Shown here in pieces: positions 27,078 to 28,798 of a stretch of 64,000 nucleotides of DNA (within the stretch, counting starts at the first letter, position 1; every line of letters starts with the position of its first letter). Source of the stretch: Aurantiacibacter zhengii (GTDB taxonomy: Bacteria; Pseudomonadota; Alphaproteobacteria; Sphingomonadales; Sphingomonadaceae); contig NZ_QXFL01000002.1 in assembly GCF_003584125.1 (NCBI RefSeq), forward strand, positions 558,001 to 622,000, read 5' to 3'. Position numbers and translations under genes: made by a program. The notes under the pieces are model-generated. The model made no database searches. It was not told where the DNA came from and saw only the letters and a program-made list of their open reading frames with translations.

Positions 27078-28040
27078 TCATCGATTGGAATGACCTGTTT
27101 GGTCGATAAGTTCCCGCATATCGGCTGGCAGATCGCTGGAGAACGACAGGGCGTTACCGGTGACGGGATGGATGAAACCGAGTCGCGCGGCATGGAGAGC
27201 CTGGCGCTCGAAACCCAGGGCCTTGATAACAGGCCGTAAAGCGGCTGGAGTGCGTCCGTACACAGGGTCTCCTATTAGCGCATGACCGATTGACGCAAGG
27301 TGAACCCTGACCTGGTGGGTTCGCCCGGTTTCCAGCCGGCATTCGATCAAGGAACAGTGATCGAGCCGTTCCAGCGTGCGGAAATGCGTGATGGCGTGCT
27401 TCCCGCGCTTCGAATCGTCGGGCAGCACGGCCATCTTCTTGCGGTCCCGGTCGCTGCGCCCGAGTCGCGCATTCACGGTGCCCGAAGCCGGACTGGGATG
27501 ACCGCCGCACACGGCGAGATAGGCGCGCTCCAGCGAGTGATCAGCGAACTGCTTCGCCAGCCCCTCGTGCGCCGCATTGCTCTTGGCGACGACCAGCAGG
27601 CCGGATGTGTCCTTGTCGATGCGGTGGACGATGCCGGGCCTCGCCACGCCGCCGATGCCGGAGAGCTGCCCCTGGCAGTGGTGCAGCAGGGCATTCACCA
27701 GCGTGCCATCGGGATTTCCCGCTGCGGGGTGCACCACCATGCCTGCCGGCTTGTCGACCACGATCAGGTGATCGTCCTCGTAGGCGACCACTATGGGGAT
27801 ATCCTGTGGACAGGCCTGTGGATCGCTTGGGGGCGGCAGGTGGATAGAAAAGCTCGACCCCGCTTGAACTTTGGTACTGGCGCTGGTGGCAGCCTTCCCG
27901 TCCACCTCCACCTTCCCCTCGGCAATCAGGGCCTTGATCCGTTCGCGCGACAGATCGGCCACTTCCGCCAGCGCCTTGTCCAGCCGGGTGGCGCTGTGGA
28001 TAGTTCCGGTGAGGGTTTGGGAGGCGGTTTGGTCAGACAC
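27078..28040 (-). CDS. rluD: 23S rRNA pseudouridine synthase, RluA family (RluD-like)
   Basis: 320 aa. N-terminal S4 RNA-binding domain (TRLDKALAEVADLSRERIK...), then the RluA catalytic domain with the signature HRIDKDTSGLLVVAKS containing the catalytic Asp, and HQVRVHLASIGHALIGDPVYG later. S4 plus this length point to RluD (helix 69 of 23S rRNA) rather than RluA. Diverges from the GIY-YIG gene; a palindromic repeat lies just upstream of its start. Confidence 0.9.
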   Translation of the reverse strand: MSDQTASQTLTGTIHSATRLDKALAEVADLSRERIKALIAEGKVEVDGKAATSASTKVQAGSSFSIHLPPPSDPQACPQDIPIVVAYEDDHLIVVDKPAGMVVHPAAGNPDGTLVNALLHHCQGQLSGIGGVARPGIVHRIDKDTSGLLVVAKSNAAHEGLAKQFADHSLERAYLAVCGGHPSPASGTVNARLGRSDRDRKKMAVLPDDSKRGKHAITHFRTLERLDHCSLIECRLETGRTHQVRVHLASIGHALIGDPVYGRTPAALRPVIKALGFERQALHAARLGFIHPVTGNALSFSSDLPADMRELIDQTGHSNR

Positions 28041-28051
28041 ACCCCCTCTTT

Positions 28052-28086
28052 ACCGTCTGCCCTGAGCTTGTCGAAGGGCTGTCTTT
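28052..28086. repeat. Dispersed palindromic repeat, left copy bracketing the GIY-YIG frame
   Basis: Contains CCCTGAGCTTGTCGAAGGG, the same sequence as at 2432-2450; flanking bases ACCGTC and CTTT...AGCGCA are also shared with the copy before queE. Lies between rluD and the GTG start of the GIY-YIG frame, 17 bases before that start. Confidence 0.85.
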
Positions 28087-28102
28087 CACTTAGCGCAGGG
28101 GA

Positions 28103-28798
28103 GTGCCTTTCTGGACTTATATCCTTCACTGCAATGCGGGCCGTTTCTATACCGGCCACACCGACGATCTCGACAAGCGGATCTGGCAACACGAGAATGG
28201 AGTGGCTGCCGGTTTTACTCGCAACTTCCTTCCGGTGAAATTGGTCTGGTCTCAGGAATTTACCACCCGCGAAGAGGCGAAGGCGGCGGAGAAGCAGATC
28301 AAGGGATGGTCGCGGAAGAAGAAGCTGGCGCTGATCCGCGGCGACTGGGATGCCGTGACCCGTTACGCAAAAAGCGAAAGCAGCCCTTCGACAGGCTCAG
28401 GGCAGTCGGTATGGGTGGAAGGCGAGGTAATCGATTTGCTTCGCGGCGAAGCGGCGCGGGCCTATCCCGCGGAATGCTGCGGCATCCTGCTGGGCCGCGA
28501 CGAGCATATCACCGCCGCCGTTCCCGCGCGCAACGTCCATCCTGCCCCGCAGACACATTTCGAAATCGATCCGCAGGCCCTGATCGACGCGCACCGCACC
28601 GCTCGGCAGGGTGGTCCGCAAGTCGTGGGCTATTACCATTCGCATCCCGAAGGCCCGCCCCGCCCTTCCGCCACGGACCGCGCCCAGGCCGCGCACGACG
28701 GCATGGTGTGGGCAATCATCTGCGCCGATGCGATTGGCTGGTGGCATGATACGCCAGACGGTTTTGCCGCGCTTCCCTACCGGGCAATCCCGGCCTAG
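28103..28798 (+). CDS. GIY-YIG nuclease domain fused to JAMM (M67) peptidase domain
   Basis: 231 aa in one open frame. Residues 1-90 are a GIY-YIG domain: Tyr6, Tyr16, Arg26 and Glu63 (AKAAEKQ) fit the catalytic set of the small YhbQ/UPF0213 type. Residues about 93-102 (SSPSTGSGQ) are the translation of a palindromic repeat. From about residue 105 is a JAMM/MPN+ metallopeptidase: Glu124 (ECCGILLG), His179, His181, Ser189 and Asp192 (HSHPEGPPRPSATD). A GTG at 28415 could start the JAMM part alone, but it has only a poor ribosome site. Either a true fusion created by repeat insertion or two adjacent genes with a shared frame. Confidence 0.82.
   Translation: MPFWTYILHCNAGRFYTGHTDDLDKRIWQHENGVAAGFTRNFLPVKLVWSQEFTTREEAKAAEKQIKGWSRKKKLALIRGDWDAVTRYAKSESSPSTGSGQSVWVEGEVIDLLRGEAARAYPAECCGILLGRDEHITAAVPARNVHPAPQTHFEIDPQALIDAHRTARQGGPQVVGYYHSHPEGPPRPSATDRAQAAHDGMVWAIICADAIGWWHDTPDGFAALPYRAIPA
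28382..28411. repeat. Dispersed palindromic repeat, inverted copy inside the coding frame
   Basis: AGCCCTTCGACAGGCTCAGGG is read here in parts: CCCTTCGACA-GGCTCAGGG is the inverse of the copy at 28052-28086 with one base different in the core. It is in frame with both domains of the fusion and encodes the SSPSTGSGQS linker. Confidence 0.85.

Follow-up and report, generated by a model that had tools for sequence, protein, structure and literature searches.

Could short palindromic repeats be spread through a bacterial genome by an enzyme other than the transposase usually held responsible for them? This question is raised by a locus of Aurantiacibacter zhengii in the window (the whole stretch of 64,000 nt that was analysed), where a small GIY-YIG nuclease gene stands between two inverted repeats and runs on into a JAMM metallopeptidase domain. 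RAYT/REPIN systems are characterized by dispersed short palindromic repeats, by inverted doublets for which hairpin formation is predicted, and by an enzyme encoded by a single gene close to the group of repeats that belongs to it (PMC3116915). The reading that we favour, with a probability of roughly 0.6, is that of a parallel system, namely a mobile cassette of the form REP-nuclease-REP, accompanied by gene-less repeat-pair derivatives, with a GIY-YIG enzyme instead. The cassettes look like mobile DNA unlike the textbook kind behind such repeats.

A nuclease gene between inverted repeats

The nuclease gene is framed by a left REP-like repeat at 28051-28081 on the plus strand, whose core CCTGAGCTTGTCGAAGG was matched at 28061-28077, and a right one at 28381-28411 on the minus strand, with its core at 28385-28401. 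These 31-nt arms are 94% complementary, leave 299 nt between them and have their cores facing inward; they are the first-listed of 13 inverted pairs in the 3 kb scanned. With up to two mismatches allowed, the 17-nt core has four matches in the window, against 0.04 expected; with one mismatch at most, the 3.80-Mb genome (29 contigs) contains 16 copies, against none for the reversed control pattern. The original prediction, that the nuclease lies between inverted copies of one dispersed repeat, is thus confirmed.

Some copies are paired without any nuclease. For example, a REPIN-like dyad at 2434-2510 consists of two inverted copies of the cassette's repeat about 60 nt apart, and eight repeat dyads were identified in the source genome, with the partner 57-64 nt away and its core carrying 0-2 mismatches in five of them and 3 in the other three. 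The two dyads that were folded as DNA gave z of -4.6 (2434-2510) and -5.6, and inverted REP doublets able to form long hairpins, a feature of RAYT/REPIN systems, are therefore present here. A single repeat folds only weakly (z -1.0 to -1.8), and no strong single hairpin is claimed. By eye, the inner and outer flanks of the 57-64-nt pairs resemble the ends of the cassette, which is why the pairs are read as gene-less miniatures.

The nuclease domain occupies 28103-28384 on the plus strand (PF01541, E 1.9e-17) and is UPF0213/YhbQ-like, with PDB sequence matches to 1zg2 (E 1e-14) and 1ywl over residues 3-79. Its structural assignment rests on these Pfam and PDB sequence matches and not on Foldseek. 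Residues Y6, Y16, R26, H30 and E63, which we take to be catalytic, are conserved alignment columns, and the conserved Y, Y, R, H and E place the domain in the GIY-YIG superfamily. Hardly any member lacks them, and this holds for the fused forms as well: they are present in 12 of 12 JAMM-fused members and, depending on the position, in 25-27 of 27 TrmJ-fused members (the exceptions being two Y16F, one R26D and one E63D). Four GIY-YIG matches occur in the source genome. Besides the cassette nuclease, these are a match inside a 781-aa frame (L002), presumably UvrC; a stand-alone gene (L003, C22:24173-24391) flanked on both sides, by eye, by an unrelated palindrome of the CCCGGGCTTGACCCGGGG type in inverted copies; and a truncated gene (L004, C22:311364-311450) with the cassette's repeat, which is of type A, 58 nt upstream with one mismatch, which looks like a decayed cassette.

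It had been proposed that GIY-YIG frames between inverted copies be counted in related genomes, and the count shows strong enrichment. Among 199 family genomes, 72 of the 90 closely related nuclease genes (group 1) are bracketed by inverted repeats, as are 37 of 40 more distant ones (group 2), compared with 1 of 3000 random positions in the fetched loci and 1 of 142 control genes (TrmJ 1/35, JAMM at empty sites 0/15, rluD 0/43, chpT 0/40, rpoH 0/9). Chance inverted repeats are ruled out by these two controls. Here, bracketing means an alignment score of at least 20 for inverted repeats around the gene, a threshold that was set after the first scores were known. It should also be noted that group 2 was hand-picked from the weaker matches, mostly in order with several skipped, that some loci of the gene control were counted twice under different ids, and that two genomes with group-1 matches (G065 and G106) lie outside the 90 and stand unchecked among the 26 genomes referred to below as having other group-1 nucleases. 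The 18 group-1 loci below the threshold comprise 11 of the 25 at trmJ and 7 of the other 65, and some loci below the threshold keep a one-sided repeat (L119, L132, L136, L146).

Similar cassettes, in which each type of nuclease is paired with a repeat of its own, recur in other bacteria, and the observation is a general one. A wider scan of genome contigs yielded 48 nuclease loci, one of which (L050) was too short for scoring; 29 of the remaining 47 reach a score of 20 and 18 do not. In 16 of the 48, the gene has a plus-strand core at most 60 nt upstream and a minus-strand core at most 26 nt downstream, each with up to two mismatches. Outside Sphingomonadales, scores of at least 20 with hairpin variants were obtained in Legionella (L036), Ignavibacteriota (L048), Planctomycetota (L051), Bacillota (L052), Chloroflexota (L061-L065) and a candidate phylum (L067); the threshold was not reached at three Bacteroidota loci (L044, L045, L049) and others. 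In the distant group (L149-L188), hairpins such as CGTCATTGCGAG...CAATCCAG and CGTCATTCCCGCG...CGGGAATCCAG are seen. Repeats of the latter form flank some group-2 nucleases, for example L167, L172, L175 and L182, and presumably resemble the Neisseria NTS/dRS3 repeat.

The rluD-JAMM junction and the fused frame

The left neighbour of the cassette is an rluD-like pseudouridine synthase gene at 27078-28040 on the minus strand (PF00849, E 1.5e-36; TIGR00005, E 5e-96). Among 30 JAMM loci including the window, rluD adjoins JAMM in 29, and L092, which had no rluD match, was excluded. Fifteen of the 29 junctions are empty, with neither nuclease nor repeat core. The cassette is present in the window's orientation in ten and flipped in L085 and L087, and the last two junctions retain internally deleted remnants, a nuclease piece with one repeat (L089) or two (L094). 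From codon 1 of rluD to position 1 of the JAMM query there are 20-45 nt in 14 of the empty junctions and 128 nt in L097. Flipped copies also occur elsewhere (L028, L030, L103, L104).

Presence and absence at an orthologous site, as expected of a mobile element, are thus observed, and the suggestion that a cassette was inserted at the 5' end of a JAMM gene survives the comparison with empty sites that could have refuted it. The suggestion is supported by the empty, filled, flipped and deleted states and by the enrichment of GIY-YIG genes between inverted repeats, which was the second outcome that could have refuted it. Gain and loss of the cassette cannot be told apart on the tree of rluD and JAMM, which requires six changes between empty and cassette-derived states, four of them forced by starred branches. 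In addition, no target-site duplication could be read by eye, and the short empty spacers were not matchable to the filled flanks.

The junction is one site among many. The 90 family loci form 33 neighbourhood clusters, a number that missed homology would reduce, and the largest contain 25 (trmJ), 21 and 8 (rluD-JAMM) loci. The 21-locus cluster, for example L140 and L190, has mostly C-type cassettes, and its site looks like yqeY-dnaG as judged by eye from two members.

Could the system be a tool for structuring the genome and not a mobile element? An Ssn-type enzyme would then cut incoming or exposed DNA at the repeats and tune uptake or recombination, while the repeats would spread by ordinary recombination and be kept for their use. 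The Ssn family is of the GIY-YIG kind and cuts single-stranded repeat sequences, and this, like the presumed Neisseria resemblance of some group-2 repeats, fits such a role. Taken alone, however, such a role accounts neither for the 33 neighbourhood clusters nor for a single locus that is empty, filled, flipped or partly deleted in different relatives. We consider it unlikely, though not so unlikely that it could be set aside.

In the window, the nuclease belongs to a single open frame of 231 aa at 28103-28798 on the plus strand, in which both GIY-YIG (PF01541) and Prok-JAB (PF14464) are found. The right repeat is translated in this frame as SSPSTGSGQS (28379-28408, residues 93-102), and the JAMM domain follows at 28415-28798 (PF14464, E 1.5e-25). 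The claim that the repeat is read in frame and joins the nuclease to a complete JAMM domain therefore holds, the frame being free of stops. The motif HxHP...SxxD is present, and H179, S180, H181, P182, S189 and D192 are invariant in 11 aligned fusions. The Foldseek matches listed are JAMM structures covering the C-terminal part, with a fold match to Pyrococcus JAMM1. An AlphaFold2 model, based on an alignment of only 11 sequences, has two domains (mean pLDDT 82, pTM 0.56), with pLDDT below 50 at residues 90-100, overlapping the repeat-encoded segment. The right repeat is inferred to serve as a flexible linker in a putative fused polypeptide.

In 138 loci, a same-strand downstream neighbour is reached without a stop in 12 of 13 cases for JAMM, 27 of 27 for TrmJ and 3 of 4 for RluD; the flipped L085 and L087 were not in this test. 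The loci share ancestry, and consequently these counts are not independent draws. Linker lengths were taken up to where the BLAST match begins; distinct lengths therefore overstate the number of independent indels, and no probability is given. An in-frame outcome is thus seen again at trmJ and, where the cassette is flipped, at rluD.

The open frame over the right repeat might be incidental in DNA of high G+C content, with JAMM having its own start near 28415, where a GTG indeed stands. Long chance frames do occur in such DNA, as in the upstream extensions of trmJ without nuclease similarity, and one JAMM relative (L023) is out of frame. This explanation is nevertheless improbable, given the 12 of 13 JAMM and 27 of 27 TrmJ neighbours in frame, even with their shared ancestry, and given that no in-frame ATG, GTG or TTG was seen by eye at the JAMM boundary in the segments inspected of L079 and of L073 (identical in sequence to L025). 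By eye, an ATG is still present at the JAMM start in the flipped L085 and seems to be gone in the loci with a forward cassette. Because forward cassettes seem to have cost JAMM its ATG and 12 of 13 GIY-JAMM pairs are in frame and stop-free, a fused nuclease-JAMM protein is favoured, although translation as one polypeptide is inferred.

Cassettes at trmJ account for 25 of the 90 family loci (for example L116, L142 and L198), and the frame there is open in all 27 cases when L034 and L057 are added. The repeats at this site are often decayed, 11 of 25 being below the threshold. Since the share of decayed repeats is higher there and the frame is still open, it fits that the trmJ fusion has been kept for its own sake after mobility was lost, which is an inference. 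Nuclease similarity was absent from 29 of 30 trmJ loci that had been selected on match score. Degenerate nucleases were sought ahead of unusually long trmJ frames (G095, G103, G114, G144, G076) and rejected, there being no similarity at E up to 1e-3.

Repeats in trans, transposases and nuclease clades

If the nuclease and its repeat belong together, how are they distributed among genomes? In the 199 family genomes, the median number of exact A-type cores is 23.5 where an A-bracketed nuclease is present (36 genomes), 1 where other group-1 nucleases occur instead (26) and 0 where there is no group-1 nuclease (137). The difference between the first and the last is significant (p 2e-15), and the median is 20 once the bracketing copies are removed. 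The association is not complete. Two of the 36 genomes (G071, G160) lack the exact core, the outer repeat bases being changed, and 17 of the 137 genomes without a detected group-1 nuclease carry at least 10 A repeats (G062, G070, G113, G120, G186 and 12 others). In these 17 the engine may have been lost, detection may have missed it, or another mover may be at work. Note that repeat counts and genome handles were transcribed by hand for these statistics, which are uncorrected for the shared ancestry of loci and genomes.

Then, is the nuclease merely a passenger, trapped between two repeats that a RAYT-type Y1 transposase or other machinery moves? The repeat pairs do resemble REPINs, which are linked to RAYTs (PMC3116915), and a Y1_Tnp match exists in 11 of 53 repeat-rich family genomes and in 6 of the 36 with an A-bracketed nuclease. 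No match to Y1_Tnp (PF01797, RAYT-type), however, was found in the source genome at E up to 0.001, which rejects a RAYT as mover there. Across the 199 genomes, 31 have a match and no association with repeat richness exists (11 of 31 with Y1_Tnp are repeat-rich against 42 of 168 without, odds ratio 1.65, p 0.27); for the nuclease, the odds ratio is 30 (p 1.5e-15). As 42 of the 53 repeat-rich genomes have no Y1_Tnp match, the usual RAYT explanation fails in them. Nor would a passenger be predicted to have a hairpin type that follows its clade, and we give this possibility very little weight.

That the hairpin type does follow the clade is observed on a tree of 136 nuclease domains, where nine hairpin types require 15 changes. 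The minimum possible is 8, shuffled labels average 74.9, and none of 200 shuffles was as low as 15. The tree rests on 94 columns with 53 of 131 inner branches open, L004, L050, L056 and L124 were left out, labels at 14 loci were assigned or overridden by eye, and near-copies contribute to the signal. Host lineage is rejected as the source of the match, because paralogues of a single genome differ in hairpin type: G225 has A, C, D and HX, G101 has C, D and H1, and G162 has D, H1 and H3. Most likely, the nuclease recognises its own hairpin, which is inferred from the pairing, cleavage itself being an inference. Co-inheritance alone, in which nuclease and hairpins descend as one unit and the match needs no recognition, can call on the recurrence of the cassette at shared sites across many genomes (rluD-JAMM, trmJ, yqeY-dnaG-like), and part of the tree signal is therefore linkage, but in trans, too, dispersed repeats of the matching type are more numerous, even without the bracketing copies, which leaves this explanation hardly any credence either.

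Proposed mechanism and comparison with known systems

How might a mobile cassette with a GIY-YIG enzyme work? The enzyme, probably of the Ssn kind, would nick its own hairpin while the latter is single-stranded, at replication forks or in incoming DNA, and repair would then copy the two hairpins into new places, either alone or together with the gene. The dispersed pairs 57-64 nt apart in the source genome would be cassette miniatures of the gene-less sort. The cassette can be flipped as a whole, for which recombination between the two inverted copies would be the simplest route, and a deletion inside it can leave repeats and a piece of the gene; flipped and deleted states are seen in relatives at the same locus. 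Between rluD and the JAMM gene, the ATG of JAMM would have been lost, as is apparent, and JAMM would continue the nuclease frame through the repeat. GIY-YIG enzymes are not known to join strands; the enzyme could therefore not transpose on its own, and host repair would be needed. Against the proposal stand the loci below the repeat threshold, the 17 repeat-bearing genomes without a detected group-1 nuclease, the absence of a readable target-site duplication and the weak folding of a single repeat. Moreover, neither cleavage nor nicking nor movement has been observed; hairpin recognition with nicking and mobilisation through host repair are inferred.

A broader proposal is possible and is offered only tentatively: a second, RAYT-independent REP system, in which GIY-YIG nucleases from numerous clades, spread over several phyla, would each drive a hairpin family of their own, made up of autonomous REP-nuclease-REP cassettes and non-autonomous repeat pairs, by hairpin-specific single-strand cutting and host repair. 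They would persist by in-frame fusion through the repeat to housekeeping enzymes, loss of the cassette then damaging the host gene; at trmJ the repeats would decay and the fusion stay.

Neither a link between GIY-YIG and REP, nor cassette inversion, gene-less pairs or recurrent fusions through the repeat, was found among the literature matches listed, which cover openly licensed papers and leave most subscription journals outside. The clade-wise pairing of nuclease and repeat offers a concrete source for repeats where a RAYT is absent, and the natural set of nuclease-hairpin pairs is large enough to be used for work on specificity. Moreover, a repeat would here have turned into protein, as an in-frame linker joining a selfish-looking nuclease to JAMM, TrmJ or RluD.

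Among known proteins, the UPF0213/YhbQ-like GIY-YIG proteins (PDB 1zg2, 1ywl) are sequence homologues of the cassette nuclease, and Prok-JAB/JAMM proteins such as Pyrococcus JAMM1 share the fold and motif of the C-terminal domain, whereas the predicted protein here bears an N-terminal nuclease attached by a repeat-encoded linker. Spread by cut and copy is conceivable for the cassette gene as it is for GIY-YIG homing endonuclease genes that stand alone; however, the cassette gene lies between inverted hairpin repeats, its 94-aa domain has little room for a separate DNA-binding tail, and it has no known double-strand target. N. meningitidis SsnA and its homologues are reportedly small single-strand-specific GIY-YIG endonucleases, each with its own dispersed repeat. 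The cassette genes are likewise small with a dispersed repeat each, and some group-2 repeats are presumably Neisseria-like. A mobile or invertible cassette, gene-less pairs and in-frame fusions to JAMM, TrmJ or RluD, as read from the loci here, are not known from the Ssn work, and single-strand cleavage by the cassette nuclease is only inferred. Like RAYT/REPIN systems, finally, the cassette system has dispersed palindromic repeats, inverted doublets and a single-gene enzyme near its own repeats, but that enzyme is a GIY-YIG nuclease and not a Y1 tyrosine transposase.
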